From the NCBI GenBank assembly GCA_947378785.1, contig CANCLK010000001.1:1-64000 (forward strand): 64,000 nucleotides of DNA, in the 5' to 3' direction. The translations under genes were made by a program, and so were the position numbers. The notes under the pieces are model-generated. The model did no database searches and was not told the DNA's origin. It saw nothing but the letters and a program-made list of their open reading frames with translations. Shown piece after piece: positions 15,591 through 31,088 of the stretch; the first letter of the stretch is position 1; every line of letters starts with the position of its first letter. This stretch comes from Comamonadaceae bacterium. Its GTDB lineage: Bacteria > Pseudomonadota > Gammaproteobacteria > Burkholderiales > Burkholderiaceae_C.

Positions 15591-16904
15591 TCAGTGCAAG
15601 AGCACTGTCGCAATTGACGGCACCAAGATGATGAGCAGTAAAACCAGCACCATGGCCAAGGCAAACGGCGCAGCGCCGCGAAAGATGTCGCCCAGCGTGA
15701 TGCGGTCATCCGCCAGCGTGCTCTTGATCACGAAAACAGACAAACCAAACGGGGGTGTGAGCAGACCCACTTCCACCGCAATCACCGTGACGATGCCAAA
15801 CCAGATCAGGTCAACGCTGTGTGGCGCCAGCAATGGCAGGAACATGGGCACCATGATGAGCATGATGGAAATACCATCCAGGATGGTCCCCATGATGAGA
15901 ATCAGAATGGCGTAGATCAGCAGCAACGCCACCAAGCCTAGGTTGGCCGCGACAACCGATTCGTTGATGACATTGGGCAGGCCCGACAGAGCGATCAAGC
16001 GCGTGTAAATATTGGCCGCGATGATGACAAAGAGGATCGACACCGTGACTTGGCCGGTCTCGACCAAGACTTTCCAGATACCACTCCACGTCAGCCTGCG
16101 TCGGCTAGCCGCTAGGATCAAGGCCCCCATAGCGCCGATGGCTCCCGACTCTGTGGCAGTGAACCAGCCCGCGTAAATACCCCCAATGACCCCACCAGCC
16201 AGCAAGCCCAATGGCAGCAGCAACCACAAAGCTTGCACCGTGCTCAGCGAGGAGGACTGTTCGCCCTGCGCATCGCGGTCGTAGACCATGTGCGGCTTAA
16301 ACACGGCCATGAAAACAATCATGGCGGCAAACACCGCGGCCAGCAGCAGGCCAGGGACGATCCCGGCAATAAACAGGTCACCGATGGACTGCTGCGCCAG
16401 CAAGCCATAGATGATGAGCAACAAGCTTGGCGGTATGAGCATGCCCAGCACGGAGCTGCCCGCCACGACGCCGACAGCAAAGCGCGGCTTGTACCCCAAG
16501 CGAATCATTTCAGGCACGGCCACCTTGGTGAAGACGGCGGCCGAAGCAATCGACACGCCGGTGACAGCGGCGAACACCGCATTGGCCGCGACAGTCGCAA
16601 CCCCTAAGCCACCTTTGAGCCGCCCCAGTAAGGCATTGGCCGCCAAGAATGCATCTCTCCCGAGGTCGGCGACGCTGACGAGCAGGCCCATCAGCACAAA
16701 CAGCGGTATCACGCCAAAGTCGTAACCCGAGACAGCGTCAGCCGCGGCCATAGCCAACAACGACGAAGCTTGCTGATAGCTGCCCTTGATGGCCCAGACA
16801 CCGACGAGGGACACCAGGCAGAAGGCCACAGGCACATGCAAGCCGCTGTAGACCAGCACAAGGATGGCCAAGATCGACAAAAGGGCAATTTCAGTACCGG
16901 TCAT
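15591..16904 (-). CDS. TRAP transporter large permease subunit (DctM family)
   Basis: A 437-residue, highly hydrophobic inner-membrane protein with about a dozen transmembrane segments. Family-typical segments include VIPLFVLMGLLVSVADLGRD, SVLGMLIPPSLLLIIYGLL and VGLLTPPFGLSVFVIKS. It forms the ion-coupled channel of a TRAP importer. The start overlaps the DctQ stop (TGATG), with AGGAG eight bases upstream. It is last in the amidohydrolase–DctP–DctQ–DctM operon. Confidence 0.95.
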   Translation of the reverse strand: MTGTEIALLSILAILVLVYSGLHVPVAFCLVSLVGVWAIKGSYQQASSLLAMAAADAVSGYDFGVIPLFVLMGLLVSVADLGRDAFLAANALLGRLKGGLGVATVAANAVFAAVTGVSIASAAVFTKVAVPEMIRLGYKPRFAVGVVAGSSVLGMLIPPSLLLIIYGLLAQQSIGDLFIAGIVPGLLLAAVFAAMIVFMAVFKPHMVYDRDAQGEQSSSLSTVQALWLLLPLGLLAGGVIGGIYAGWFTATESGAIGAMGALILAASRRRLTWSGIWKVLVETGQVTVSILFVIIAANIYTRLIALSGLPNVINESVVAANLGLVALLLIYAILILIMGTILDGISIMLIMVPMFLPLLAPHSVDLIWFGIVTVIAVEVGLLTPPFGLSVFVIKSTLADDRITLGDIFRGAAPFALAMVLVLLLIILVPSIATVLLH

Positions 16905-17446
16905 CAACGATTCTCCTGACCCATCAGGCCTGCGGGGGGCTCATGACCGAACGCCCGACTCACATCATGCAAGGCAAACATCAGGTACTGCAATGTCGAT
17001 CCGACGCAGCCAATCAGCATGAACAGCCGAATTGGCCACGTCGGGTACGTGACATACCCCTCAACGCCCACGTAGTCGTTGCTCGTCCAGGCCTGCACAA
17101 ACAACGGTTGCAAAGCAACATACAAAGCGACGAAGAGACCTGCACCGAGCAGTGAGAAAAGGCCTTGCAAAGCGAAGTTCAATCGCGGCACACGCACCTT
17201 GAGCCAGTCGCTGAAAGTTTCAACGCGTGTGATTCGCCCTGAGCGCAGTGCGTGCGCAATTTGCAAAAACACAATGCCGACGATAGACAGGCTCACCAGC
17301 TCAGGCACGCCGGGCAGCGGCTGGCTGAAGAGGGTCCGACCGATCACGTCAGTGACGATGATCAGCATCAGCAGAAAAATCCAAACGGTCCCCGCCGAAT
17401 TGAGCACCAGCAGCACCTTGGTATAGGCGAGGAGAAGTTTGTTCAT
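16904..17446 (-). CDS. TRAP transporter small permease subunit (DctQ family)
   Basis: A 180-residue inner-membrane protein with four predicted helices and the family features IIVTDVIGRTLFSQPLPGVPEL and IAHALRSGRITRVETF. It pairs with DctM to form the TRAP membrane complex. The open frame extends 17 codons upstream into dctP, but the ATG at 17446 (MNKLLLAYTK) leaves a 7-bp gap and fits the first helix. It sits between the solute receptor and the large subunit, the usual order. Confidence 0.93.
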   Translation of the reverse strand: MNKLLLAYTKVLLVLNSAGTVWIFLLMLIIVTDVIGRTLFSQPLPGVPELVSLSIVGIVFLQIAHALRSGRITRVETFSDWLKVRVPRLNFALQGLFSLLGAGLFVALYVALQPLFVQAWTSNDYVGVEGYVTYPTWPIRLFMLIGCVGSTLQYLMFALHDVSRAFGHEPPAGLMGQENR

Positions 17447-17453
17447 CGGCACT

Positions 17454-18524
17454 TTAGTTTTTATCCCAGTCGCGTACCAACTGCACGTTGTTGTCACGCA
17501 GCTTCTTCATGTAAGCGGTTAGCACTTTCGGAGCCGGCAGGTTGCGCTTGGCGTTGGTGTCAGCCCAATTCTTCGCAATGTTGGGCATGGTGGTCGCCCA
17601 CTTACGACGCTCTTCATCAGGCAGCTTGGTGAACTTGGCGCCCTCGTCTTTCATCTTCTTCTCAAAGTCGCCGGCCAAGCTCTGAAGTTGCTCAGCGATC
17701 CGCACGTTGTACTCCTTACCGACATCCTTGATGATCTTACGGACGTCGGGCGGTAGACGATCATGAAAGGCCTTGTTGATCGTCACCGCACCAATCATCA
17801 TGGAGCCCAGATCAACACGCGTTGCGTACGGCGCCACTTGATGCAGTTTGGGTGGATACATCCCGGTTGTAAACGCGATCAGGCCGTCATAGACGCCCGT
17901 CTTGATGTTATTGAAATGGGTTGCAAAGTCACCATGAACGGGCACTGCGTTGATGCCATTGACCCACAGGGCGAGGGAGCCCGCAGCACCGATTTTTTTG
18001 CCTTTGAGGTCGGCAATACTGTTGACGGGGAAGTTAGTCAACAAGTAGTCGGTGTCGGTAGAGAGCGCAGCTAAAAATATCTGGTTGTGACGGGTCCATT
18101 GGCTGGCCATTTCCGGCATCTCATCATTCATCTCGTACATGATTTTATTCAGCACACGGGGGTCATCGCTGCCAAAAGGTGCCATGAAACTCACCGCAAG
18201 AAGCGGCAATTTAGCCGGTTCAAAGATGGTGTAAACAAACCCCATTTCAGCCACACCACTGCCAACCGCATCTAACTCACCACCGACCTTGGCCAAGGTT
18301 CCACCGAAGGCCTCGTTCCAGACGATGTTGTGCTTACCGCCAGCGGCAAGCCGCTTATCAATCTCCGGGATCATGAAGTTCTTGATCATTCCGATCCACG
18401 GCAGCTGCGGCCCGTGAGCAGCGCTGATGGTGACTTTGAAAGTCTCGGCATTCACAGCAGGACTGAGCGCCGACAGGCAGGCGATAACGCCAGCAGCGGT
18501 CAAGGTTCGGATATTAAGTTTCAT
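17454..18524 (-). CDS. TRAP transporter solute-binding protein (DctP family)
   Basis: A 356-residue periplasmic receptor with a signal peptide ending SPAVNAETF. Family segments include VGSGVAEMGFVYT, SIADLKGKKIGAAGSLALW and GLIAFTTGMYPPKLHQVA. The arginine that usually binds the ligand carboxylate in the KIR segment is not obvious here (KKIGAAG), so the ligand may not be a simple C4-dicarboxylate. AAGGAG precedes the ATG. It lies 83 bp after the amidohydrolase gene, which may process the imported compound. Confidence 0.92.
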   Translation of the reverse strand: MKLNIRTLTAAGVIACLSALSPAVNAETFKVTISAAHGPQLPWIGMIKNFMIPEIDKRLAAGGKHNIVWNEAFGGTLAKVGGELDAVGSGVAEMGFVYTIFEPAKLPLLAVSFMAPFGSDDPRVLNKIMYEMNDEMPEMASQWTRHNQIFLAALSTDTDYLLTNFPVNSIADLKGKKIGAAGSLALWVNGINAVPVHGDFATHFNNIKTGVYDGLIAFTTGMYPPKLHQVAPYATRVDLGSMMIGAVTINKAFHDRLPPDVRKIIKDVGKEYNVRIAEQLQSLAGDFEKKMKDEGAKFTKLPDEERRKWATTMPNIAKNWADTNAKRNLPAPKVLTAYMKKLRDNNVQLVRDWDKN

Positions 18525-18607
18525 GGGTTGACTCCTTGAAAAACGTCATCAATTGGGAATGACAATTCGGCTGGACAGGGGCTTGATTTAATGAGCGTGA
18601 CTGGCCG

Positions 18608-19609
18608 CTATAGGCGCAGCAAGCGTTTGGCGTTACCTTCAAAGATGCTGTCGCGGTCTGCAGCCGCCAGGTTGAGTGAGTTGATGGCATCGATGGTGCC
18701 GCCAATGAGGTTGCGTCCACCGCGCGAGTCAAAGGGTGCATCCGTTGCGAAGAGGCAATGATCGGCTTGGAAAAAATCGAGTCCGCAGCGCGCGGCGGAT
18801 GCCGAACCATTGGTTGCCGTGTCGGCATACAGCATGCGGTAGTAATCGAGCAAAGGCTTTTTCAAACCCGCACGCTCAGCGGTCGGGTTGCGGTCTGTCT
18901 GACCGTCAAAAATCTGGTTGAAGCCCAAGTTGATCTTCTGCGAGAAGAAAGGAATCATGCCGCCCATGTGGTGCGTGATGATTTTCAAGTCGGGCAACTT
19001 GTCAAACAAGCCGGAGTAAATCAGCCGCGTCATGCAGGCACTGGTTTCGTAAGGCCAGCCAAAAGTGAACCAGATTTCATCTTCCGAGGCTTTCTCTGTG
19101 GCGTAGTCTGCAAAGTTAGGGCCGCGCATCGGGTGAACCCAAACCGGCAGGTCGTGCTGGCTCATGGTCTCGAACAACGGATAAAACTCCGGAGCGCTCA
19201 AAGGCTTACCCAGCACGTTCGTGAAGACTTGTATGCCACGGGCATCCAGTTCATTGATGGCGCGATTGGCCTCCTTGACCGCCGCATCAGGGTTGTTCAT
19301 CGGCATGGAGGCAATGAAAGCAGGAAACCGGTCGGGGTGTTTTTTGCAGATTGCAGCCAAGCCATCATTGGCCAGCCGCGCCAGTTCGGGCGTGATGTCG
19401 GGACCACCGAGCAGTTCAATGGGCGGGTTAGACAGTGCCAGCACTTGCTGGTAATCGTCGTAGCCATCCATCAGCGTCAGATGCGCGTCAATGTCCCACA
19501 GCTCGGGCAAATTGTTGAAGTCGTGCAGGATGGGAATTTGGGGAGCCGCTTCACGCATACGCTCAAACACTTGCTTGGGCAGGATGTGGTTAAAAATATC
19601 AATCTTCAT
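18608..19609 (-). CDS. Amidohydrolase-2 family (ACMSD-like) hydrolase or decarboxylase
   Basis: A 333-residue TIM-barrel protein of the family that includes aminocarboxymuconate-semialdehyde decarboxylase, LigI and LigW. Metal-site candidates are WVHPMRG, IITHHMGGMIPFF and the aspartate in LFATDAPFD. The usual N-terminal HxH is FNH (MKIDIFNHILP), so the first histidine is missing. GGAG precedes the ATG. It is first in the TRAP operon and diverges from a LysR gene across a shared operator (19700–19738). The reaction is unknown; processing of the TRAP ligand is inferred. Confidence 0.85.
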   Translation of the reverse strand: MKIDIFNHILPKQVFERMREAAPQIPILHDFNNLPELWDIDAHLTLMDGYDDYQQVLALSNPPIELLGGPDITPELARLANDGLAAICKKHPDRFPAFIASMPMNNPDAAVKEANRAINELDARGIQVFTNVLGKPLSAPEFYPLFETMSQHDLPVWVHPMRGPNFADYATEKASEDEIWFTFGWPYETSACMTRLIYSGLFDKLPDLKIITHHMGGMIPFFSQKINLGFNQIFDGQTDRNPTAERAGLKKPLLDYYRMLYADTATNGSASAARCGLDFFQADHCLFATDAPFDSRGGRNLIGGTIDAINSLNLAAADRDSIFEGNAKRLLRL

Positions 19610-19699
19610 TCATCGCTCCTTGAATCGAAATCGCCAAAAATTAAGCACCAAAAACCATCTGCATATTAAGTAGCGATTAAATGTACGGGACAAGCCCTC

Positions 19700-19738
19700 A
19701 TAGAAAATATGGTTTTTTTCTATATGATCCATAGAAGA
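19700..19738 (-). promoter_or_regulatory. Operator copy 1 of a 39-bp three-half-site element (LysR-type)
   Basis: Read on the minus strand: TCTTCTAT, 7 bp, ATAGAAAA, 8 bp, TTTTCTAT. The inner TAT-N7-ATA is a T-N11-A LysR-type box. The layout matches copies at 20712–20750 and 24735–24773 base for base in spacing, and all three point toward the gene they precede. Here that is the amidohydrolase/TRAP operon starting at 19609, while the lysR start is 27 bp from the other end. The site also lies in a near-perfect 19-bp inverted repeat (arms 19705–19723 and 19731–19749, one mismatch). Confidence 0.75.
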
Positions 19739-19765
19739 AAACCATATTTAGCTGCACCCGGAACA

Positions 19766-20680
19766 ATGAATATTTTCAATGGCATCAAACTGCGGCAGCT
19801 GCAGTACTTTCTGGCCGTCGCTGACAAAATGCATTTTTCTAAGGCTGCAGAAAAAGTTTTTGTGACGCAGCCGACCTTGTCACACCAGATCGCAGAACTT
19901 GAATCCCACGTTGGCACACCCTTGTTTGACCGCTCTGGAAAGGTCGTCAGACTGACGGAAGCGGGACGTCTTTTCGCCATCCACGCGACGAAGGCCCTGC
20001 AAGAACTGGATTCAGGCTGCACGGCTTTACGCGAACTTGAAGGACTCCAAAGGGGCACCCTCAACATCGGTGCCAGCCAGTCCTTCGTGCGCAAGCTGTT
20101 ACCGCCCTTACTGGGCGACTTCATGAACCGGTACCCGGCGATCCGGCTCAACATTCAGGAAATGACAGCCACGCAAATAGAGCGAAACCTGGCCAATGGA
20201 AGCTTGGATCTCGGTATTGCGTTCGAGCCTTCGGTCATGGAAGACACAGAGCTCGAACCCATTTTGGAAGAGCGTCTTTTGCTGGTCGTGGGCCTGAGCC
20301 ATCCTTTGGCACACCACAGCGTTGTGCAACTGCGGCAACTGGATGATCAGCCGCTGGTGTTTTTCACGAAAGAGTTCTCAACCAGGCAACTGGTTAGCCA
20401 TTACTTTGACACCGTGTCGGCGCGCCTCAACCTGGTGTGCGAAACCAATTCGATTGAGGTCATGCTGGGGGTGGTGACGCAAACCAATGTCGCCACGATT
20501 CTTCCTGAAGGCACGATTCCGCGTGATTCGAATTTGCGGGTCATGCCGATCGTCGAACCCGAACTGGTACGGGTGTCGGCCTTGCTGTGGTCGCGCCACA
20601 GCTTTCGCACATTTGCGGCTCGTACATTTGCGGACATGGTGCGACAACACTTCCTCAGTCGGCTGCCGCTGGAAGTCTGA
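19766..20680 (+). CDS. LysR family transcriptional regulator
   Basis: A 304-residue regulator. The N-terminal helix-turn-helix is MHFSKAAEKVFVTQPTLSHQIAELE (residues about 18–42), followed by the typical linker LFDRSGKVVRLTEAG and a periplasmic-binding-like effector domain. The open frame starts 19 codons earlier, but those codons translate the operator palindrome, so the ATG at 19766 (MNIFNGIKLRQLQYF) is used. It is divergent from the amidohydrolase/TRAP operon and immediately upstream of the CaiB operon. It probably controls both, plus the 24828 operon, through the shared box, and may repress itself (inference). Confidence 0.92.
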   Translation: MNIFNGIKLRQLQYFLAVADKMHFSKAAEKVFVTQPTLSHQIAELESHVGTPLFDRSGKVVRLTEAGRLFAIHATKALQELDSGCTALRELEGLQRGTLNIGASQSFVRKLLPPLLGDFMNRYPAIRLNIQEMTATQIERNLANGSLDLGIAFEPSVMEDTELEPILEERLLLVVGLSHPLAHHSVVQLRQLDDQPLVFFTKEFSTRQLVSHYFDTVSARLNLVCETNSIEVMLGVVTQTNVATILPEGTIPRDSNLRVMPIVEPELVRVSALLWSRHSFRTFAARTFADMVRQHFLSRLPLEV

Positions 20681-20711
20681 GGCAACCCGCCGCTCGGCTA
20701 TTCCATGCCGT

Positions 20712-20750
20712 TTTTCTATGGCTTAAATAGAAAAGAAGCATTTTTTCTTT
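20712..20750 (+). promoter_or_regulatory. Operator copy 2 of the 39-bp three-half-site element
   Basis: TTTTCTAT, 7 bp, ATAGAAAA, 8 bp, TTTTCTTT. It lies 110 bp before the CaiB start. Twelve bases after the last half-site comes CATAAAGTC, aligned with CTATAAAGTC at the same distance in copy 3, a likely conserved -10 region. The similarity to copy 3 extends from before the first half-site through GGC about 70 bp later. Confidence 0.75.
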
Positions 20751-20860
20751 TCAACATCTGTCCATAAAGTCGGAGGCATGTCATCGCATCTGATTCCATT
20801 CTCGCCATCTGCTCATGGCAACCTCTATTCAGCCGCCATCATCCCTAAAAAGAAGGTCCT

Positions 20861-22087
20861 ATGAACGAAGGGGCACTCTCCGGCCTACTGGTGCTGGACC
20901 TTTCTCGCGTTCTTGCGGGCCCGTGGGTCGGGCAAACCTTGGCGGATCTGGGCGCTGAAGTCATCAAGGTCGAACGTCCTGTGAGCGGCGACGACACGCG
21001 CAGTTGGGGACCTCCGTTTTTGAAGGACCTGAACGGTGAACCGACGTCTGAATCGGCTTATTTTGCGTGCGCTAACCGAAACAAAAAATCACTCACGGTC
21101 GACATCACACGACCTGAGGGTCAGGATGTGATTCGTCGGCTGGCAGAGCGCGCTGACATCCTGATCGAGAACTTCAAAGTCGATGGACTCAAGCAGTATG
21201 GACTGGACTACGCCTCGCTTCGAAAGATCAATCCACGGCTGATTTACTGCTCGATCACCGGCTTTGGTCAAACTGGCCCCTATGCGTCTCGCGCCGGCTA
21301 TGACTTCCTGATCCAAGCCATGGGCGGCTTGATGAGCATCACTGGCCAGAAAGATACTGAGCCTGGTGCCGGACCACAAAAAGTGGGCGTTGCGCTGACA
21401 GACATCCTGACGGGTTTGTATTCAACCGTTGGTATATTGGCTGCCCTTTCACACCGGCAGCGCAGTGGCGAAGGCCAATGGCTAGACATGGCGCTGCTGG
21501 ATGTCCAGATTGCCAGTCTGGCCAATCAGGCCAGTAATTATCTGGTTGGCGGCGAGTCGCCGACACGAATGGGAAACGCCCATCCCAATATCGTGCCGTA
21601 TCAAGACTTCCCGACCCGGGACGGCTATATGGTGATTGCCGTTGGCAACGACGCCCAGTTCAGTCGCCTGTGTCTGGCTGCTGGGCGCCCTGACATTGCG
21701 ACCGACCCTCGCTACCGCACGAACAAGGACAGGGTCCAAAACCGCAAGGAACTCATTTCTCAGATGAACGCCTTCACAGTGACACGAAGCACGCAAGAAT
21801 GGATCTCGGATCTAGAAACTGTGGGTGTTCCGTGCGGACCCATCAACAATCTCGAGCAAGTTTTTGCCGACCCGCACGTGAAGGCCCGACAGATACATCA
21901 ACAACTGGAACACCCGTCCATGGGCACGGTGTCTTCTGTGGCCAGTCCCATCCGCCTGTCCGAGACCCCCGTCCAATACCGCATGGCCCCCCCCTTACTG
22001 GGTGAGCACACCCACGAGGTGCTCTGCGATTTACTGGGCATGAGCGAGCAGGAAGTAAGCGCCTTGCAGCAAGCCGGTGTCGTCTGA
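20861..22087 (+). CDS. CaiB/BaiF family CoA-transferase
   Basis: A 408-residue class III CoA-transferase starting LSGLLVLDLSRVLAGPWVGQ. The catalytic aspartate is expected in VALTDILTGLYS near residue 170; FACANRNKKSLTVDI and SGEGQWLDMALLDV are family-typical. AAGAAGG lies five bases before the ATG. It is first in an operon with a crotonase, a dienelactone hydrolase and a Bug receptor, downstream of operator copy 2, and presumably supplies the CoA ester used by the crotonase. Confidence 0.92.
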   Translation: MNEGALSGLLVLDLSRVLAGPWVGQTLADLGAEVIKVERPVSGDDTRSWGPPFLKDLNGEPTSESAYFACANRNKKSLTVDITRPEGQDVIRRLAERADILIENFKVDGLKQYGLDYASLRKINPRLIYCSITGFGQTGPYASRAGYDFLIQAMGGLMSITGQKDTEPGAGPQKVGVALTDILTGLYSTVGILAALSHRQRSGEGQWLDMALLDVQIASLANQASNYLVGGESPTRMGNAHPNIVPYQDFPTRDGYMVIAVGNDAQFSRLCLAAGRPDIATDPRYRTNKDRVQNRKELISQMNAFTVTRSTQEWISDLETVGVPCGPINNLEQVFADPHVKARQIHQQLEHPSMGTVSSVASPIRLSETPVQYRMAPPLLGEHTHEVLCDLLGMSEQEVSALQQAGVV

Positions 22088-22114
22088 CACCCAACAGAAT
22101 GAAACAAGCTATTC

Positions 22115-22906
22115 ATGACTCATTTTCTGACCATCGAGATTGCTGACGGCATCGCACTGCTGACCATGAACTCACCCGAGACCCGCAATGTCTTGGGATT
22201 CGATCAGCCCTCAGCCGAGATCGAGGCTGCATGCACCCAAATCGCCGCCGACCGAAACGTACGCGCCGTGGTGCTCACCGGTGCGGGCAAGGCTTTCAGC
22301 GCAGGGGGCGACATCAAGAACATGGCGGCACGACTTGACAACAAGGACCGCCAACCAATCGATGACCGCTACTACTATAAGGAAGGCATCCACCGCATAC
22401 CCCGCGCGTTGTACCACCTTGAAGTCCCGGTCATCGCAGCCGTCAATGGTGCGGCGATCGGCGCTGGTCTGGACCTGGCCTGTATGTGTGATGTGCGCAT
22501 TGCCGCGCAAAGTGCAACCTTTGCCGAGAGCTTCGTGAAATTAGGCATCATCCCGGGCGATGGCGGCGCCTTCTTGCTGCAACGCATCGTGGGTCAGTCC
22601 AAGGCCGCCATCATGACGTTCACCGGCGATGCCATTGATGCGCCAGAGGCGCTGGACTGCGGCTTGGTTTCACAAGTTGTACCAGACGATCAACTCCTCC
22701 CCACCGCCATGCGCTTGGCTGCGAGAATCGCCCGTAACCCGGTCCATGCGTTGCGAATGGCCAAGCGGCTGATGCGGGAAAGCGCACACCTGCAACTGGA
22801 CACAGTGCTCGAGCTTTCGGCCGCTTTTCAAGCGTTAGCTCATTCAAGCACTGATCACCGGGAGCGCTTATTGCAGGCTGTCGCGGCAATGGGGAAAAAA
22901 CGCTGA
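22115..22906 (+). CDS. Enoyl-CoA hydratase/isomerase family protein with altered active site
   Basis: A 263-residue crotonase with the CoA loop SAGGDIKNMA and the oxyanion segment NGAAIGAGLDLACMCDVRIA. The first hydratase glutamate is replaced by Asp (in GLDLAC). The position of the second is occupied by Phe (ATFAESFVKLG against the usual PE), although a Glu lies two residues earlier. It may therefore be an isomerase, hydrolase or lyase rather than a hydratase. It lies 27 bp after CaiB with no strong ribosome site. Confidence 0.88.
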   Translation: MTHFLTIEIADGIALLTMNSPETRNVLGFDQPSAEIEAACTQIAADRNVRAVVLTGAGKAFSAGGDIKNMAARLDNKDRQPIDDRYYYKEGIHRIPRALYHLEVPVIAAVNGAAIGAGLDLACMCDVRIAAQSATFAESFVKLGIIPGDGGAFLLQRIVGQSKAAIMTFTGDAIDAPEALDCGLVSQVVPDDQLLPTAMRLAARIARNPVHALRMAKRLMRESAHLQLDTVLELSAAFQALAHSSTDHRERLLQAVAAMGKKR

Positions 22907-22950
22907 GACAGCAAGATCGCAGACACAATGCAACCAAGAGGCAAAACGAT

Positions 22951-23679
22951 ATGAAAACCGAATATGTGATGATTCCGATGAAGGGCGGCTCGATGGGGGC
23001 CTACATCGCCTACCCTGACACCCTAGGGCCGGCCCCTGCGATCATCGCCATCATGGAGATATGGGGCGTCAATGACACCATGCGTGCGCATGCCCATGAA
23101 TACGCCGAGGCCGGCTATATATGCCTCGTACCCGACTTGTTCTGGCGCCAAGAGCCTGGGGTGGAACTGTCCGACCGAAACCCAGCGGACGGACAAAAAG
23201 CCTTTGATCTTTATTATGAATTCGACTATGACTTAGGGGTCGAGGACATGCTGGTCGCCGACGCCTTCTTGAAGGCTAAGTCTGAGTGCAATGGCAAGGT
23301 TGGCGCAGTGGGCTACTGTTTAGGAGGCAAGCTGTGCTACCTCATGTGCTGCCGCACCGACATTGACTGTGCCGTCGCTTATTACGGCACCTATATCGAG
23401 CACAACATCAGCGAAGTCAAAAACCTACACCGACCATTTGTTCTGCACATGGCCATGAAAGATCGTTGGGTGCAGGCTGAGGTGAACGCGCTGCTTGAAC
23501 GCAAGCTGCGACCCAACCCCTTGGTCACCATTCATCAATACCCAGAGGCCGACCACGCCTTTGCGCGCATCGGCGGGATTCCGTATCGCAAGGCCGAGGC
23601 CGACCGCGCCCTGGCGTTGACCCTTGATTTTTTTAAACAGCATTTAAGCGTGCCCCTTTTGACTTCGGAGGCTTCATGA
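22951..23679 (+). CDS. Dienelactone hydrolase family protein
   Basis: A 242-residue alpha/beta hydrolase. The cysteine nucleophile is in GAVGYCLGGKLCYL near residue 123. The acidic residue is probably the Asp in MAMKDRWVQ, and the histidine is in PEADHAFARIG. The glutamate of IMEIWGVND near residue 35 matches the residue that orients the Cys in dienelactone hydrolase. The family hydrolyses enol-lactones and related esters. AGAGG precedes the ATG. Its stop overlaps the Bug start (ATGA). Confidence 0.9.
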   Translation: MKTEYVMIPMKGGSMGAYIAYPDTLGPAPAIIAIMEIWGVNDTMRAHAHEYAEAGYICLVPDLFWRQEPGVELSDRNPADGQKAFDLYYEFDYDLGVEDMLVADAFLKAKSECNGKVGAVGYCLGGKLCYLMCCRTDIDCAVAYYGTYIEHNISEVKNLHRPFVLHMAMKDRWVQAEVNALLERKLRPNPLVTIHQYPEADHAFARIGGIPYRKAEADRALALTLDFFKQHLSVPLLTSEAS

Positions 23680-24647
23680 GTCTGATCAGACGTGTTTTTT
23701 TAGCAACCCTCGCAGCGACCAGTCTGGGCGCCATCGCGCAGACCAATGCCAACTGGCCGACACGTCCTATCAAGTTGATCGTGCCTTTCCCGGCGGGGGG
23801 TGGCTATGACTTTATGGCGCGCAACCTAGCGCAAAAACTGACTGACTCGCTAGGGCAACCGGTGGTGGTAGAAAACCGTGCGGGTGCGAATGGCAACATA
23901 GGCTCCGATGCGGTCGCCAAGGCAGCGCCTGATGGCTACACACTGCTGCTGGGTGGCATTGGACCTCAAGCTTTCAGTGTCGCGTTGTATCCCAAGCTGC
24001 CATTTGACCCCCAACGCGATTTCGCCCCGGTGTCCTTGGTCGCCTCGCAGCCTAACTTGCTACTCACCCACCCCTCACTCCCGGTCAAGAGTGTGGCCGA
24101 ACTCGTGGCCTTGGCAAAAGCCAAGCCGGGGGAACTCCCTTTTGGCAGCACCGGCAGCGGTAGCGGCCAGCATTTTGGACTCGAGCAGCTCAAGGCTGTC
24201 TCAGGCATCGATGTGATCCATGTGCCCTACAAGGGCGCAGCACCATTGCATATGGCCATGCTGGCTGGTGAAGTGAAGGTCGCCTTCAACATCATCCAAC
24301 TGCCCATGCAACAGGTCCGCCGCGGCGAACTTCGCGCCTTGGCCTTGGCCAGCAAGAAACGATCGCCATTGGCGCCTGAAGTCCCCACCATGGCCGAGCT
24401 GGGCTATCCGATTGACTTTGACACTTGGTACGCCGTGTTTGCGCCGACAGGAACGCCACGCGACATCGTCGCCAAGCTCAATGCCGCCATCCTTCGCGCA
24501 CTGTCAGATCCTGCGTTCAAGGAGCGTGCCCTGGCACTGGGCATTGATCTGATCGGAAGCAGCCCAGAGCAACTGGGCACCCACATGCGTCAAGAGATCA
24601 CGCGTTGGACGGATCTCGCGAAAGCCGCCAACATCAAGGCCGACTAA
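23676..24647 (+). CDS. Bug family periplasmic substrate receptor
   Basis: A 323-residue receptor with a signal peptide ending LGAIAQTNA, then PTRPIKLIVPFPAGGGYDFM, VVVENRAGANGNIG, APDGYTLLLGG, GSTGSGSGQHFGLE and HVPYKGAAPL. GGAGG lies before the ATG, which overlaps the dienelactone hydrolase stop. It is last in the CaiB–crotonase–DLH operon and is followed by a strong terminator, so in this operon the receptor comes last rather than first. Confidence 0.93.
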   Translation: MSLIRRVFLATLAATSLGAIAQTNANWPTRPIKLIVPFPAGGGYDFMARNLAQKLTDSLGQPVVVENRAGANGNIGSDAVAKAAPDGYTLLLGGIGPQAFSVALYPKLPFDPQRDFAPVSLVASQPNLLLTHPSLPVKSVAELVALAKAKPGELPFGSTGSGSGQHFGLEQLKAVSGIDVIHVPYKGAAPLHMAMLAGEVKVAFNIIQLPMQQVRRGELRALALASKKRSPLAPEVPTMAELGYPIDFDTWYAVFAPTGTPRDIVAKLNAAILRALSDPAFKERALALGIDLIGSSPEQLGTHMRQEITRWTDLAKAANIKAD

Positions 24648-24673
24648 CCTGCCCTTCCAAGTGCCCCGCAAAA

Positions 24674-24709
24674 AGGCCACGCGGGAATATTCCGCGTGGC
24701 CTTTTTTTT
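24674..24709 (+). terminator. Rho-independent terminator
   Basis: The stem GGCCACGCGG pairs exactly with CCGCGTGGCC around a 7-base loop, and the hairpin is followed by eight T residues; flanking A and T runs extend the stem. It lies 27 bp after the Bug stop and ends the CaiB–crotonase–DLH–Bug transcript, just before operator copy 3. Confidence 0.93.
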
Positions 24710-24734
24710 GAAGGCCCGCCATTGGGAATGCCTG

Positions 24735-24773
24735 TTTTCTATAGGGCAAATAGAAAAAAAGCATTTTTTCTAT
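24735..24773 (+). promoter_or_regulatory. Operator copy 3 of the 39-bp three-half-site element
   Basis: TTTTCTAT, 7 bp, ATAGAAAA, 8 bp, TTTTCTAT: the best-conserved copy. CTATAAAGTC follows 11–12 bp later, as in copy 2, and the GTG start of the CocE gene is 55 bp from the end of the box. The preceding operon is closed by a terminator, so this must be a separate promoter responding to the same regulator. Confidence 0.77.
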
Positions 24774-24827
24774 TGGCCCACCCCCTATAAAGTCAGCGGC
24801 ATCATCAAACAGTGTGAGGGACATACC

Positions 24828-26564
24828 GTGAGTCAAGAAAAAAACGAAGTTCGAGATGGGATGCGAATTCAGTGGGATGCGCCCATCGTCATGGATGACG
24901 GCGTCGTGATGCGGGCCGATATTTTTCTGCCACTTGCCGAAGGACGCTATCCGGTGATCCTGACCTATGGGCCTTACGCCAAGGGGCTTGCCTTTCAAGA
25001 GGGCAATGCCGCCGCGTGGGAACGTCTGGTGGCGTCTCATCCCGATATTCTGGAAGGCTCCAGCAACATTTACCAGTCTTGGGAACTGGTCGACCCCGAG
25101 AGGTGGGTTCCCGAAGGCTACGCCTGCGTACGGGTTGATTCGCGCGGTACCGGTCGCTCGCCCGGCTACGTCGACCCCTGGTCGCCACGGGAAACGAAAG
25201 ATCTTTACGAGTGCATTGAATGGTCTGGCGTACAGCCTTGGTCCAGCGGCAAGGTGGGCCTTAACGGCATCTCTTATTACGCCATGAACGCTTGGCAAGT
25301 GGCCGCGATGGAACCTCCGCATCTGACCGCGGTCTGCGCCTGGGAAGGCGCTTGCGACTATTACCGTGAAGCGACCCACCACGGCGGCATCGTCTCAGAT
25401 TTTCTGATCAACTGGTTTCCTCGCGCGGTTCACCGGTCGCAACATGGCTGCGGCGAGCGCGGATCACGCAGTCGTGTCACAGGCGAGCTGGTCTGCGGCC
25501 CCGAAACTTTGTCTGAAAACGTCTTGGCAGCCAATCGCATCGACATCGAAAAATGGATCATCGAACGGCCTTTTGCGGATGAAGACCACGAGGGCAGATC
25601 AAGCCACCCTGAGAAAATCAAAGTGCCGGTGCTGTCATCTGGGAATTGGGGTGGCCAAGGTCTGCACACGCGCGGTAACTTTGAAGGGTATCTGCGCGCT
25701 GGAACGACCGAAAAGTGGTTGGAAGTACATGGGGGTGCTCACTGGGAGAGTTTCTACACCGCCTACGGAATAGCGCTTCAAAAACGCTTTTTCGGGCACT
25801 TTTTGAAAGCCGAAAAAACGGGCTGGGATCAACAACCCCCGGTACGCTTGCAGGTGCGACATGTCGACCGATTTGTCGAGCGCGATGAACAGGAATGGCC
25901 CATTGCCCGTACGCAGTGGACGAAGTATTACTTGGACCCATCCGACTGCAGCCTGCGTACTCAAGCGCCCAAAGACCGCTGCACCCTGAGTTATGACACG
26001 GCGGGACATGGGCTCATGTTCCTGTCGCCCCCCATGGCGCAAGATCTTGAAATCACTGGCCCGAGCGCTGCAAAGATGATGCTGTCGTCCTCCACACAGG
26101 ACGCTGATGTGTTTTTAGTACTGCGTGTCTTCACACCCGATGGATGTGAAGTGACCTTTCATGGCTCCAACGACCCGCGCACCCCGGTCGGGATGGGCTG
26201 GCTGCGCGCGTCACATCGCAAGCTCGATGCAGCACGCAGCCTGCCTTATCGCCCATTTCACACCCATGATGAAAGTCAACTCCTCACACCCGGGCAACCG
26301 GAGGCTCTGGACGTTGAAATTTGGCCAACCTGCATCGTGGTCCCCAAGGGATACCGATTTGGATTGTCTGTACGCGGCAAGGACTACCAATTCCCCGGAG
26401 AACCTTTGAGCATTCCTGGCGTCAAGTACACCCTGACAGGCGTGGGGCCGTTCCTGCATCACCACCCTCAAGATAGGCCCGCAGATGTGTTCAAAGCCAC
26501 CAACACACTGCACTTCGAACCCGGTCAACAGCCTTACGTGCTGCTACCCGTGATCCCAAGCTAA
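24828..26564 (+). CDS. CocE/NonD family serine hydrolase, paralogue of the gene at 13795
   Basis: A 578-residue product with a GTG start preceded by GAGGG. An open frame runs 44 codons further upstream, but that part translates the operator and promoter and is not coding. It has VDSRGTGRSPG, the nucleophile elbow VGLNGISYYAMNAW and the C-terminal jelly-roll region (MMLSSSTQDADVFLVLRVF; GLSVRGKDYQFPG). It is recognisably paralogous, by eye about half identical, to the 13795–15555 product along its whole length. It is first in a plus-strand operon with Bug and amidohydrolase genes. Confidence 0.9.
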   Translation: MSQEKNEVRDGMRIQWDAPIVMDDGVVMRADIFLPLAEGRYPVILTYGPYAKGLAFQEGNAAAWERLVASHPDILEGSSNIYQSWELVDPERWVPEGYACVRVDSRGTGRSPGYVDPWSPRETKDLYECIEWSGVQPWSSGKVGLNGISYYAMNAWQVAAMEPPHLTAVCAWEGACDYYREATHHGGIVSDFLINWFPRAVHRSQHGCGERGSRSRVTGELVCGPETLSENVLAANRIDIEKWIIERPFADEDHEGRSSHPEKIKVPVLSSGNWGGQGLHTRGNFEGYLRAGTTEKWLEVHGGAHWESFYTAYGIALQKRFFGHFLKAEKTGWDQQPPVRLQVRHVDRFVERDEQEWPIARTQWTKYYLDPSDCSLRTQAPKDRCTLSYDTAGHGLMFLSPPMAQDLEITGPSAAKMMLSSSTQDADVFLVLRVFTPDGCEVTFHGSNDPRTPVGMGWLRASHRKLDAARSLPYRPFHTHDESQLLTPGQPEALDVEIWPTCIVVPKGYRFGLSVRGKDYQFPGEPLSIPGVKYTLTGVGPFLHHHPQDRPADVFKATNTLHFEPGQQPYVLLPVIPS

Positions 26565-26595
26565 ACGGTCAGAAGTCCGACTAGAAGGAGACTCC

Positions 26596-27570
26596 ATGAA
26601 ACATCTTTGTTATTCACTGCTGCGTCTTTTGGCCATTTCATTGAGCCTGGGCGCCTTGCCGCAGTTGGCTCATGCGCAAAGCTATCCATCAAAGACAATT
26701 CGATTCATTGTGCCGTTCCAAGCCGGCAGTGCACCCGACGCGATTGCCCGCGTGGTTGCACAGCACATGCAGCAGACGCTGGGCCAGAGCATCACGATCG
26801 ACAACAAGCCTGGTGCCAGCGGCGCCATCGGGGCAGCCGAAGCCGCCAAAGCTGCGCCAGACGGATACACCATTTTTGGTGGCAGCAATACCATCCTGGC
26901 AGCCAATCCCAGCTTGTTCAAGAAACTGTCCTATCACCCGACCAAAGATTTTGTCCCCGTCGGTCGACTCATCACCGCTTCATTGACCTTGGTGGTGAAG
27001 CCAGACTTCCCGGCACAAAACCTGCGTGAATTCGTTGCGTATGTCAAAAGTAAAAAAGGCTCACTGAATGCAGGTTACGCATCAGCAGGCATGCAGGTCT
27101 CGCTCGCAGAGCTACGGAATTTAGCCGGCGTGGACTTTCTCGATGTCTCGTACAAAGGTGCGCCTCAAGCCGTCACCGATCTGCTGGGCGGACAAATCGC
27201 ATTCACGTTTGCAGACAACGCCGTTGCCGCCACCCAGATCAAGGCGGGCCGTGTGCGGGGACTGGCGATCACAGCACCCACGCGCACCGCGCTGCTGCCA
27301 GACATGCCAACCATGGCAGAACAATTTCCTGGTTTTGATGTGACAGTTTGGAACGGCCTTTCAGCGCCAACCGGCACACCGAAAGAAGTCATCGACAAGC
27401 TCTGGGATGCGGCCAACAAGGCGCTGGCCTCACCGGATGTGATTGCACGTCTGTCATCCCTTGGATTAGAGCCAGCGCCCATGGGACCCGATGACTATGG
27501 CCGTTTTATTGCAGCCGAGACCATCAAGTGGGCGCGCCAGATCAAAACCGCAGGCATTCAGCCAGAGTGA
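26596..27570 (+). CDS. Bug family periplasmic substrate receptor
   Basis: A 324-residue receptor with a signal peptide ending QLAHAQSYP. Core motifs are SKTIRFIVPFQAGSAPDAIA, ITIDNKPGASGAIG, APDGYTIFGG and VSYKGAPQAV. The usual GSxGxGS loop is altered to GYASAGMQVS, so ligand contacts may differ from its relatives here. AAGGAG lies seven bases before the ATG. It follows the CocE gene by 31 bp and probably delivers the ester or acid handled by it. Confidence 0.92.
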   Translation: MKHLCYSLLRLLAISLSLGALPQLAHAQSYPSKTIRFIVPFQAGSAPDAIARVVAQHMQQTLGQSITIDNKPGASGAIGAAEAAKAAPDGYTIFGGSNTILAANPSLFKKLSYHPTKDFVPVGRLITASLTLVVKPDFPAQNLREFVAYVKSKKGSLNAGYASAGMQVSLAELRNLAGVDFLDVSYKGAPQAVTDLLGGQIAFTFADNAVAATQIKAGRVRGLAITAPTRTALLPDMPTMAEQFPGFDVTVWNGLSAPTGTPKEVIDKLWDAANKALASPDVIARLSSLGLEPAPMGPDDYGRFIAAETIKWARQIKTAGIQPE

Positions 27571-27640
27571 CCGAAAACGATCTATTCTTTTTCCCCAAGC
27601 CTTTCGTACAACCACAATTTAACCCCTGCAGGCCCCCTCA

Positions 27641-28633
27641 ATGGTGATCGATGCCCACGCCCATTACGTTCCGCCCAAAATCATTGAGCACCTTCGACAA
27701 GAGGGGCCGCGCTATGGAATTTCAGTGCTTGACTCCCCTCCTCCAGCGTGTGCTTGTCTGAAGTTTCAAGACGGTCTGCAGTGCAGGCCGTTTTTCTCAC
27801 GGTTGCTCGAATCACCGCAAGAGCGCCAAGAATCCATGAGCCAACAGGGCATCGACCGACAAGTCCTTTCAGGCTGGGTTGATGTCTTTGGGCATGGGCT
27901 CAACACGGACCAAGGGACTGCTTGGCACCGGCTCATGAATGAGCATCTCTCCGCCACTTGCCAAGCGCACCCTGAGAGCTTTTCAATGCTTGCCTCAGGA
28001 CACATGCCGAACGCTGCCAGCGCAGCCGGTGAGCTCGAGTTTGCAGTGCGCCAACTGGGTGCCGTGGGTGGCGTCGTCGCATGCAACATCAACGGCGTCA
28101 ACCTTGGCGAAGCTGAGCTTGACGAATACTGGGCGGCAGCCAGCGAACTGGATGTCCCCGTGTTCCTGCATCCGACGCAACCGGTCCCCACGCCTCGCAC
28201 TCAGAAATTCGCGCTCAACCAAGTCGTCCAGTACACCTTTGACACGACACTGGCCATCGGGTCTCTGATCTGGAGTGGCGTGCTCGATCGCTTTCCGAAC
28301 TTGAAGCTCATCGTCTCGCATGGCGGTGGCGCCTTTCCATACCTCATGGGTCGTTTTGACTGCATGCATGAACGCAGTCATGCGGGTTTGCAGTCAGAGA
28401 AACCACCCTCGGCGTATTTGCGCCGAATGCACTACGACACCATCCTTCACGATGCCGCCGCATTGCGCTACCTCAAGCAACAAGTTCAATGCGACCGCAT
28501 CGTCCTTGGTACGGATGATTCATTTCCCCCCGCTGACATGGACCCGCTGGGCAGCCTCAAGTTAGCCGGTTTCACGTCCGAAGAAATCAATCAAATCGCC
28601 AACGTGAACCCGTCGGCCTTGTTCAAAATATAA
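27641..28633 (+). CDS. Amidohydrolase-2 family (ACMSD-like) hydrolase or decarboxylase
   Basis: A 330-residue TIM-barrel metalloenzyme with a complete candidate site: HxH in MVIDAHAHYVPP, then VFLHPTQP, LIVSHGGGAFPYLMGRFD and the aspartate in IVLGTDDSFPP. This pattern suits a zinc-dependent decarboxylase or lactonase. It differs from the gene at 18608, whose N-terminal motif lacks a His. It lies 70 bp after the Bug gene with no clear ribosome site and no promoter I can identify, so it is probably in the same transcript. Confidence 0.87.
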   Translation: MVIDAHAHYVPPKIIEHLRQEGPRYGISVLDSPPPACACLKFQDGLQCRPFFSRLLESPQERQESMSQQGIDRQVLSGWVDVFGHGLNTDQGTAWHRLMNEHLSATCQAHPESFSMLASGHMPNAASAAGELEFAVRQLGAVGGVVACNINGVNLGEAELDEYWAAASELDVPVFLHPTQPVPTPRTQKFALNQVVQYTFDTTLAIGSLIWSGVLDRFPNLKLIVSHGGGAFPYLMGRFDCMHERSHAGLQSEKPPSAYLRRMHYDTILHDAAALRYLKQQVQCDRIVLGTDDSFPPADMDPLGSLKLAGFTSEEINQIANVNPSALFKI

Positions 28634-28693
28634 ATTCGCGCTCCATGAAATGAGTGAGAATCACGCAGATTCAATATCCAAATCTAGAAAAAT

Positions 28694-29560
28694 ATGACTA
28701 TCTTGAATATTCGCGGCGTCAATATTAATTACGAAGTTGTGGGGACTGAAGGTCCGTGGTTGACATTGATCACCGGCGGACGACGCGGCTACACGGAATT
28801 TCTACCGTTCGCTGCAAAAATTGCTGCCAAGGGCTTTCGAGTGCTCCTTCACGACCGACGCAACACCGGTGCGTCTGACGTTCTGATTGAAGGACAAGAC
28901 GGCGAAGAAGAACTGTGGGCAGATGACCTGGTGTTGCTGCTCAAGCATTTGAATGCTTCGCCAGCATTTGTGGGCGGCACGTCTTCAGGCGCCCGGATGT
29001 CCATGATGGTTTACTTCCGTCACCCTGAGGCGGTCAAGGCGCTGTTGCTGATGCGCGTGACAGGCGGGAATTTTGCCGCTGGCAGATTGCCCGACATGTA
29101 TTACGGTCAATTCATTCGTGCAGCAGAACAAGGCGGCATGGCTGCAGTCTGTGAGACCGAACAGTACCAGGAGCGGATCAAGGCCAACCCGGCCAATAAA
29201 GATCGTCTCATGGCGATGAACCCACAGACTTACATTGACGTGATGAACCACTGGCTGACTATTTTTCTACAGGGCCCACGCAAGCCTGTATTGGGCGTCA
29301 CCGAGGAAGCCATACGCTCCATCAAAGTACCCACTATCGTCGTTCCGGGGAATGACCTGACGCACGCATCGGCTAACGGTCTTGCCACAGCGGCCCTGAT
29401 AGACGGCAGTATTTTGTACAGCCTCCCGATCGAAGACCAGGATGTGCCACTTTTGCCCTTCTCAGACTGGGCGCCGCATGAGGCCGCCTTGGCCGACAAG
29501 TTTGCAGAATTCATGCACTCTGTGCAAACTCAACCCACCCACCACAGAAATCCCCTATGA
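28694..29560 (+). CDS. Alpha/beta hydrolase
   Basis: A 288-residue alpha/beta-hydrolase-fold protein. The nucleophile elbow is FVGGTSSGARMSMM (Ser near residue 98), preceded by VLLHDRRNTGASDV; acid candidates lie in IVVPGNDLTH. A clear C-terminal catalytic histidine is hard to place: candidates are in DWAPHEAA and in the His-rich tail. The reaction is unknown; ester or C–C bond hydrolysis is possible. Its stop overlaps the cupin start (ATGA), so the two are coupled. Confidence 0.82.
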   Translation: MTILNIRGVNINYEVVGTEGPWLTLITGGRRGYTEFLPFAAKIAAKGFRVLLHDRRNTGASDVLIEGQDGEEELWADDLVLLLKHLNASPAFVGGTSSGARMSMMVYFRHPEAVKALLLMRVTGGNFAAGRLPDMYYGQFIRAAEQGGMAAVCETEQYQERIKANPANKDRLMAMNPQTYIDVMNHWLTIFLQGPRKPVLGVTEEAIRSIKVPTIVVPGNDLTHASANGLATAALIDGSILYSLPIEDQDVPLLPFSDWAPHEAALADKFAEFMHSVQTQPTHHRNPL

Positions 29561-30042
29561 AAAATCCCTCTATACGCAGAGTCGTGACAGGTCATGACGA
29601 TCAAGGCAAGGCCATCGTCAAGATTGATGAGGTTTGCAGCCACTTCATGGAGGGGCGACCCAACGGCTTTTCATGCAACATCTGGACGACGGACACCCAA
29701 CCGTCAGACAACTCCGGACAAGCCGACAACGGCTTGCGGGCGGGCAAATTCACCACCATTGAGAACGGTTCCGTTTTTAGAATCCTTGACTTCCGTCCAG
29801 GCGTTCAGCAACGGGTTCACCGGACGGACTCCGTTGATTACATCGTCGTGATGTCTGGAGAAATCGACATGGAACTGGAGACTGGCGAAGAGGTTCACCT
29901 CAAGGCCGGTGATGTGATGGTTCAGCGAGGCACCGTCCACAACTGGATCAACCGTGGCACCGAATCTTGCGTCATGGCCGTGATCTTGATTCATGCCAAC
30001 CCGGTGCAAGCGGGCGACAAAACGCTCAACGCCTTCGGCTAG
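29557..30042 (+). CDS. Cupin domain protein
   Basis: A 161-residue protein with one cupin barrel. The conserved segments are FRPGVQQRVHRTDSVDYIVV with EIDMELETGEEVHLKAGD, and MVQRGTVHNWINRG. The metal-ligand pattern is weak in motif 1 (one His, no HxH) and retains a His in motif 2. It may be a binding or isomerase protein rather than a dioxygenase. It is co-translated with the preceding alpha/beta hydrolase and followed by a Bug gene. Confidence 0.85.
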   Translation: MKNPSIRRVVTGHDDQGKAIVKIDEVCSHFMEGRPNGFSCNIWTTDTQPSDNSGQADNGLRAGKFTTIENGSVFRILDFRPGVQQRVHRTDSVDYIVVMSGEIDMELETGEEVHLKAGDVMVQRGTVHNWINRGTESCVMAVILIHANPVQAGDKTLNAFG

Positions 30043-30098
30043 TTGGACAGGCCGAGCGCCTATCAAGTGCAGTGTTCGTGTTGTAACTGGAGCCAATT

Positions 30099-31088
30099 TT
30101 GAATAAATATTTTTTGAGCCAATGGGCATTCCGTTCTTGTGTTGCCGTGCTGGGCGTTGCCATCGCCAGTGGCGTGGCCGCGCAAGCGTTCCCGAGCAAA
30201 CCCATCCGTCTGGTGGTTCCTTTTGTACCCGGTGGTGTCGTGGATGTCACGGCGCGTCAACTCGGCCCCAAACTGTCTGAAGCTCTCGGTCAGCCGGTGC
30301 TGATTGAAAACAAAAGCGGTGCTGGCGGCACCCTTGCAGCGGACTATGTGGCGAAGTCCGCCCCAGATGGTCACACCCTGCTGGTCGCCTTCGACTCGCA
30401 TGCGGTCAATCCCCACATCTACAAATCCGATCTGCGCTATGACACCTTCAAAGACCTAGCGCCTATTTCCTTTATTGGCAGCATCCCTTTGCTGCTGGCC
30501 ACCAGCATGGCTTTTCCGGCCAATGACATTCCGACCTTCATCCAGGTAGCGAAGAGCAAACCAGGCACCATTTCCTATGCATCCGTAGGCGCTGGCAGCT
30601 CGGGCCACTTGGCGGCCGAACAATTGAAGTTGCTCGCCAATGTCGATATGCTGCACATCCCCTTCAAAGGAGGTGCACCCGCACTGTCGGCCTTGATGGG
30701 CGAGCAAGTCCAGTTGATTGTGTTTGCTGCAGGTGCCGGCGTGCCACTGGTCCGGGGTGGAAAAGTCAAGCCACTGGCGGTCAGCGGAAAGCGCCGCTCG
30801 TCAGCATTACCTAGCGTGCCGACCATGGCGGAAGCCGGTTATCCGCAGCTTGACTCTGGCGCATGGATCGGTTTGCTCGCGCCAGCGGGAACGCCAGCCT
30901 CGGTGATTGCCCGCCTGAATGCGGAGATCACCAAGGTCTTGAAGGATCCCGAGCTCATCAAGAAACTCGCTGACCAAGCCATCGACCTCTCGAGCAGCAC
31001 GCCAGAAGAGTTGGGCTCACTGATACGTGCCGAACATGACAAGTGGGGCAAGGTCATCAAGGACGCCAAGCTCAACGTCTCGCAGTGA
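30099..31088 (+). CDS. Bug family periplasmic substrate receptor
   Basis: A 329-residue receptor starting at TTG with GGAG eight bases upstream; no in-frame ATG precedes the signal peptide, which ends SGVAAQAFP. Core motifs are SKPIRLVVPFVPGGVVDVTA, VLIENKSGAGGTLA, APDGHTLLVA (His where Tyr is usual), ASVGAGSSGHLAAE and IPFKGGAPA. It ends the plus-strand block that begins with the CocE gene at 24828 and converges with the lone crotonase gene, 0 bp between stops. Confidence 0.92.
   Translation: MNKYFLSQWAFRSCVAVLGVAIASGVAAQAFPSKPIRLVVPFVPGGVVDVTARQLGPKLSEALGQPVLIENKSGAGGTLAADYVAKSAPDGHTLLVAFDSHAVNPHIYKSDLRYDTFKDLAPISFIGSIPLLLATSMAFPANDIPTFIQVAKSKPGTISYASVGAGSSGHLAAEQLKLLANVDMLHIPFKGGAPALSALMGEQVQLIVFAAGAGVPLVRGGKVKPLAVSGKRRSSALPSVPTMAEAGYPQLDSGAWIGLLAPAGTPASVIARLNAEITKVLKDPELIKKLADQAIDLSSSTPEELGSLIRAEHDKWGKVIKDAKLNVSQ

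Follow-up and report, generated by a model that had tools for sequence, protein, structure and literature searches.

A single operator, repeated in front of three operons that surround one LysR-type regulator gene, was found in a stretch of 64,000 nucleotides from a Comamonadaceae bacterium (GCA_947378785.1, contig CANCLK010000001.1, positions 1 to 64,000; hereafter the window). The three operons very probably constitute one regulon, as judged from sequence comparison. A preliminary description had proposed that the product of the LysR gene at 19766-20680 coordinates them, and this proposal is supported because the sites are confined to the locus and because the one close relative of the regulator that was found, at a locus designated L008, keeps both the spacing of the site and its linkage to relatives of all three operon-heading genes. 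The regulon is new, albeit of a known LysR kind.

A probable operator repeated before three operons

The 39-bp sites described earlier are all present, at 19700-19738 (minus strand), 20712-20750 (plus strand) and 24735-24773 (plus strand). Their N7/N8 spacing and their orientation to the next gene are identical, as had been claimed, and every site points toward the operon downstream of it. The common letters hold as a layout but not at every half-site: site 1 reads TCTTCTAT-N7-ATAGAAAA-N8-TTTTCTAT and site 2 TTTTCTAT-N7-ATAGAAAA-N8-TTTTCTTT, so that the former starts with TCTTCTAT and the latter ends with TTTTCTTT where TTTTCTAT had been given; site 3 reads TTTTCTAT-N7-ATAGAAAA-N8-TTTTCTAT. 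The TATAAAGTC-like element said to lie 12 bp past two of the sites was found there as CATAAAGTC after site 2 and TATAAAGTC after site 3, and the T-N11-A LysR box occurs both near lysR itself and near the target genes. The features of the locus are collected in Table 1.

Table 1. Features of the regulon locus in window coordinates.
Feature	Position	Strand	Remarks
LysR-type regulator gene, 304 amino acids, CynR-like	19766..20680	+	Pfam HTH_1 and LysR_substrate; start by homology, mechanical open reading frame from 19709
Operator 1, 46-bp form	19700..19745	-	Faces amidohydrolase/TRAP operon, abuts lysR
Operator 2, 46-bp form	20705..20750	+	Upstream of caiB; one mismatch (CTTT for last CTAT)
Operator 3, 46-bp form	24728..24773	+	Upstream of cocE
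Proposed -10 TACATT, operon 1	19680..19685	-	Offset 15 after site; 4/6
Proposed -10 TAAAGT, operon 2	20765..20770	+	4/6; CATAAA 2 bp upstream also 4/6
Proposed -10 TAAAGT, operon 3	24788..24793	+	4/6; TATAAA 2 bp upstream 5/6
Operon 1: amidohydrolase_2 (amhA, 18608-19609), TRAP DctP, DctQ, DctM	15591..19609	-	Pfam
Operon 2: CaiB-type coenzyme A (CoA)-transferase, crotonase, dienelactone hydrolase family, TctC/Bug receptor	20861..24647	+	Pfam
Operon 3: CocE/NonD hydrolase, Bug, amidohydrolase_2, alpha/beta hydrolase, cupin, Bug	24828..31088	+	Pfam; CocE start by homology
T-run hairpin, likely terminator between operons 2 and 3	24670..24706	+	Fold -28.5 kcal/mol, z -6.2

The central dyad TTTTCTAT-N7-ATAGAAAA has three matches in the window at up to three mismatches; 100 shuffles averaged 0.06, and no shuffle gave three. 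In the whole assembly (3.1 Mb, 85% complete, 6.5% contamination) the same threshold returns seven places, namely the three sites (0-1 mismatch) and four with exactly three mismatches. Loose dyad matches are not above background, because a reversed-pattern control gives more of them (11 versus 7 at ≤3 mismatches; 5 versus 3 at ≤2). It is the exactness and the full layout that distinguish the three sites from background dyads. The 39-bp pattern, in which two half-sites were loosened once the L008 site was seen, matches only the three sites in the assembly at ≤3 mismatches (reversed control: 1). A longer, 46-bp form of the pattern, set out below, matches three places in the assembly at ≤1 mismatch (control: 0) and none in 398 other genomes of the family (399 with its own). 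Relaxed to ≤3 mismatches, it gains two further matches in the assembly, five in all (control: 0): one is site 3 read in reverse, the other a chance match on contig C23. The preliminary description had named a box widespread without link to this LysR as evidence against the regulon. The full box is not widespread; the loose dyad alone is, with matches at ≤2 mismatches in 72 of 298 other family genomes (73 of 299 when its own is included). The motif search suggested for its own genome and for the surroundings of orthologous LysR genes placed the sites at this locus only and a single site beside the lysR of L008. G+C content is 56.6% in the window and 44-58% in four short loci on other contigs of the assembly, to which, given its contamination, contig C1 may or may not belong.

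The family genomes also hold dyads of another sequence, TTTGCTAT-N7-ATAGCAAA or TTTACTAT-N7-ATAGTAAA, in at least 12 genomes (among others at L043, L044, L060, L063, L066, L067 and L069). These differ in sequence and were set aside as another operator, probably that of another, widespread regulator. One genome, G006, has 15 dyad matches at ≤2 mismatches.

A second locus with the regulator, the site and the linked genes

L008 lies in a metagenome-assembled genome (MAG) labelled Rhodospirillales. Its LysR is 63% identical to that of the window, and its lysR is divergent from an operon of the order MFS (467 amino acids)-cocE-caiB-amhA. Identities to the window proteins are 66% for CocE, 69% for CaiB and 69% for the amidohydrolase, the last over 251 residues since the L008 copy ends at the contig edge. 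The heads of the three window operons (amhA, caiB and cocE) are accordingly found in L008 behind a single site in a single operon. This site, TCATCTAT-N7-ATAGAAAA-N8-TTACCTAT, is intergenic, is oriented like site 1 and keeps the spacing of the window sites, whose loss in relatives had been named as the other argument against the regulon. Of the 24 letters in the consensus of the window sites it has 20; among 3000 dinucleotide shuffles of its 193-bp region the highest score was 17, with none at 18 or more. In the 5-Mb genome it is the sole match at ≤3 mismatches to both the 39-bp and the 46-bp patterns, which were written after L008 had been seen. The putative recognition helix of the two LysR proteins (residues 33-48, with bounds set by us) is identical at 14 of 16 positions, compared to 124 of 204 in the ligand domain. 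The gene linkage of L008, together with its site, is the strongest evidence for the regulon.

When genome_contigs (84,980 species) was scanned with six exact 8-residue peptides of the LysR, a search that detects near relatives only, 35 relatives came up: L008 at 63% identity and 34 others at 32% or less. Protein searches with the LysR gave no hit at E ≤ 1e-70 among 398 other genomes of the family and none at E ≤ 1e-75 among 397 other genomes of the phylum (five best candidates scored per genome in both, so that misses are possible), nor any at E ≤ 1e-70 in 86 other genus genomes (up to 26 candidates scored per genome, again with possible misses) or in 38 other genomes of the family of L008; these genome sets partly overlap. 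No relatives were found in viral_contigs. Plasmids yielded 75 records at E ≤ 1e-40, all below 60% identity, with 41.8% as the best among the matches listed.

CocE relatives are present in 21 plasmid records; a further 16 copies are spread over 6 of the 240 genomes examined from the class to which the genome of L008 belongs. The surroundings of four of these records and six of these copies (L008 included) were compared with 19 window proteins. Among these ten surroundings, neither caiB nor amhA lies near the CocE relative except in L008. The only other LysR is that of L078 (29.5% over residues 7-199), which is not of the window type. Bug relatives accompany CocE at L078 and L098, and TRAP relatives at L099 and L102. 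CaiB relatives occur in 63 of 87 genus genomes, its own included. Twenty listed CaiB loci were compared over about 1.5 kb on each side: L105 is the window, L120-L122 show a Bug relative and 15 show CaiB only. At L111 (G1106:C2), relatives of CaiB (63%), crotonase (53%) and Bug are grouped like their counterparts in operon 2; this locus comes from a congener in which the search did not find the LysR.

Operator anatomy, proposed mode of action and competing readings

When the three sites are aligned with that of L008, the operator extends to at least 46 bp and reads ATRS-N7-CTAT-N7-ATAG-N7-SCAY-N5-CTAT. It contains an additional symmetric pair that is absent from the preliminary description. In the window sites, ATGS lies seven bases before the first CTAT, and SCAT lies seven bases after ATAG, within the N8 spacer; in L008 these places are taken by ATAG and CCAC, respectively. 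The operator comprises two T-N11-A boxes 22 bp apart, inverted repeats IR1 (ATRS-N7-CTAT) and IR2 (ATAG-N7-SCAY), plus one half-site. In site 1 the dyad pairs from 4 to 22 bp from its centre with a single break; sites 2 and 3 also show pairing of the outer arms, 15-18 bp out. The N7 spacers vary between sites; conservation sits on the half-sites and their spacing, L008 included.

This arrangement resembles that of the OxyR, IlvY and CynR group of LysR-type transcriptional regulators (LTTRs). According to PMC5002191, operators of this group have three inverted repeats. IR1 and IR2 are used with inducer; IR3, which overlaps IR2 and the -35 box, is used without inducer, and IR1 overlaps the promoter of the regulator itself. 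The feature of group-two LTTR operators, IR1 and IR2 placed 22 bp apart and both T-N11-A, is present in the window operator, which thus appears to fit the group-two plan save for the unrecognisable upstream half of IR3. For OxyR, PMC3953959 describes four ATAG elements spaced 10 bp apart, on which a tetramer occupies four adjacent major grooves. The window operator shares ATAG/CTAT at N7 with it, and L008 reads ATAG-N7-CTAT-N7-ATAG-N7-CCAC; it differs in its last element (SCAY), its catabolic genes and its protein, which scores 108 bits on the OxyR model against a cut-off of 329. The half-sites of IlvY (TTGCA-n5-TGCAA) and its targets are different as well, but its published repeat centres (-65/-43/-34; CynR: -66/-44/-34; PMC5002191) equal the positions derived for the window. 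The latter follow from a weak hexamer, the proposed -10, that lies 15 bases after the site at all four promoters (TACATT, TAAAGT, TAAAGT and CAGATT) and always has A in its second and fourth positions and T in its sixth. With the transcription start set 7 nt past this hexamer, the box centres fall at -65, -43 and -34. A three-half-site operator as a distinct kind is not supported: its half-sites are part of a longer operator whose layout agrees with the IR1/IR2/IR3 plan described for CynR, IlvY and OxyR. The three half-sites belong to a layout already known, and the regulatory mechanism looks ordinary.

From the sites, their confinement and the conserved site with linked genes in L008, we infer a mode of action covering binding, dimer shift, inducer and substrate. 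The LysR would bind the 46-bp operator in its three copies, between lysR and the amidohydrolase/TRAP operon, before caiB and before cocE, with two dimers occupying the T-N11-A boxes of IR1 and IR2. The last CTAT, at the -35 region, would stand for a third, overlapping box (IR3), of which only this downstream half is visible and whose -35 placement rests on the proposed -10. Without inducer, a tetramer on IR1 and IR3 would block the -35 region; with inducer, it would move to IR1 and IR2, where it would recruit RNA polymerase. The complex at site 1 would in addition repress lysR. A sigma-70 scan gives one match at the sites, on the plus strand at 19701-19728 inside site 1 and in the direction of lysR, which would suit autorepression.

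A number of observations weigh against this picture. The regulon has one independent relative only, on an 8.3-kb MAG contig, and its site is degenerate (TCAT, TTACCTAT, CCAC), with outer arms (15-18 bp from the centre) that pair at just two of four positions. The letters of the 46-bp pattern were picked from all four sites, and it was only after the sites had been seen that the outer arms were recognised, IR3 was proposed and the -10 hexamers were assigned. The upstream half of IR3 is not recognisable. Better -10 hexamers than those at offset 15 exist at site 1 (TTTAAT, offset 19, 5/6) and at site 3 (TATAAA, offset 13, 5/6), and the use of TATAAA would move the box centres by 2 bp; the L008 hexamer CAGATT scores 3/6. 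At none of the three sites does the sigma-70 scan give a promoter that reads into the operon, and its matches number 4 against 5.3 expected and hence provide no evidence. Finally, sites 2 and 3 are alike outside the operator too (ATAAAGTC, 3 bases, GGCAT), and may represent a recent duplication.

Within the shared-operator reading, these observations leave some room for another register, in which CTAT-N7-ATAG is a single strong site, the third TTTTCTAT a lone activation half-site and the outer ATGS/SCAT either chance or a DNA-bending sequence. CTAT-N7-ATAG is indeed a T-N11-A box that, with its TTTT/AAAA flanks, forms the strongest dyad, and the outer arms are imperfect in L008. Nonetheless, these arms pair in all three window sites, with the long, once-broken pairing of site 1, and they fit the two-dimer spacing published for the OxyR/IlvY/CynR group (PMC5002191 and PMC3953959). 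We consider the two-dimer register probable and the single-site register rather unlikely.

Two further explanations concern the regulon itself. Another regulator, encoded elsewhere, could recognise the sites, the neighbouring LysR being a bystander; many LysR proteins use similar T-N11-A boxes (PMC5002191). Against this speaks that LysR and site co-occur in both genomes where the LysR was found, that the 398 family genomes without a hit to the LysR have no such site either, and that site 1 and the L008 site both adjoin lysR, which makes a foreign regulator very improbable. We assign an equally small chance to the repeats being decaying copies of one duplicated promoter segment with no shared regulator in use: the likeness of sites 2 and 3 beyond the operator speaks for it, but conservation centres on the half-sites and their distances, in L008 too, and the N7 spacers vary.

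The regulator, its operons and a candidate pathway

CynR is the best NCBIfam model for the regulator (290 bits; cut-off 277), the ligand domain of CynR is its best-scoring solved chain, and it is 40.8% identical to CynR of E. coli K-12. The latter has three 15-bp inverted repeats and autorepression (PMC5002191); its half-sites are ATAA-n7-TTAT and it serves one operon, whereas the window regulator probably serves three operons with other letters and adjoins no cyanase. The sole cyanase found in the genome (G000) lies at C59:5041-5244, with no operator at ≤3 mismatches and no relative of the window LysR on C59 at E ≤ 1e-8 (12 of 19.7 kb compared). A CynR (cyanate) function was rejected for want of linkage to cyanase, and we infer from the same lack a regulator of the CynR subfamily with a different effector. 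The cyanase on C59 has two domains and is directly followed by a CaiB-type CoA-transferase (56-57% to the window CaiB) and an alpha/beta hydrolase (G000:C59:4747-6554, L135).

Operon 3 seems to reach beyond the earlier description, to 31088, taking in an alpha/beta hydrolase, a cupin and a third Bug receptor; this 3' extent is judged from gene order. The hairpin behind operon 2, which is not among the results of a consensus terminator scan, ends this operon just before site 3, which makes it probable that operon 3 depends on a separate promoter. The nearest solved structures of the amidohydrolase are an uncharacterised metal-dependent hydrolase and then aromatic-acid decarboxylases; those of CocE are a CocE/NonD hydrolase and then cocaine esterases. 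For CaiB, the best NCBIfam model is a succinate-glutarate CoA-transferase, below its cut-off. This gene content suggests that an ester or amide is hydrolysed, after which the acid is CoA-activated. The regulon would then be inducible and catabolic, leading from TRAP and Bug-type uptake over hydrolysis by CocE/amidohydrolase to CoA transfer and crotonase-type steps. One previously undefined pathway, as first proposed, is plausible from co-regulation and gene content; among the papers listed, none names such a regulon in its title or in the opening of its abstract.

Elsewhere in the window, a second CocE/NonD hydrolase stands beside a DUF6282 protein and a CobW-type GTPase at 13795-15555, where scans with the 39-bp and 46-bp patterns found no operator. 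Downstream of operon 3, 32505-34664 encodes a molybdopterin cofactor-binding protein (Pfam MoCoBD_1/2), perhaps a xanthine dehydrogenase-like subunit.

A tentative interpretation, which we hold with somewhat less than even confidence, is that this catabolic regulon is rare, has spread horizontally and serves the use of an undescribed carboxylic acid that bears an ester or amide. L008 would represent it with one operator and one operon, and the window with three operators, the operon having been broken up and enlarged by TRAP/Bug uptake, crotonase and dienelactone-hydrolase-type enzymes; both the transfer and the direction of this change are read from two genomes. The comparison with L008 offers a small, clear case of one operon versus a three-operon regulon with a multiplied operator. 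The finding makes a testable unit of one regulator and three operons and provides a 46-bp operator as a search pattern for other sequences, and the inducer of the regulator would point to the substrate of an undescribed route of hydrolase and CoA-transfer steps.

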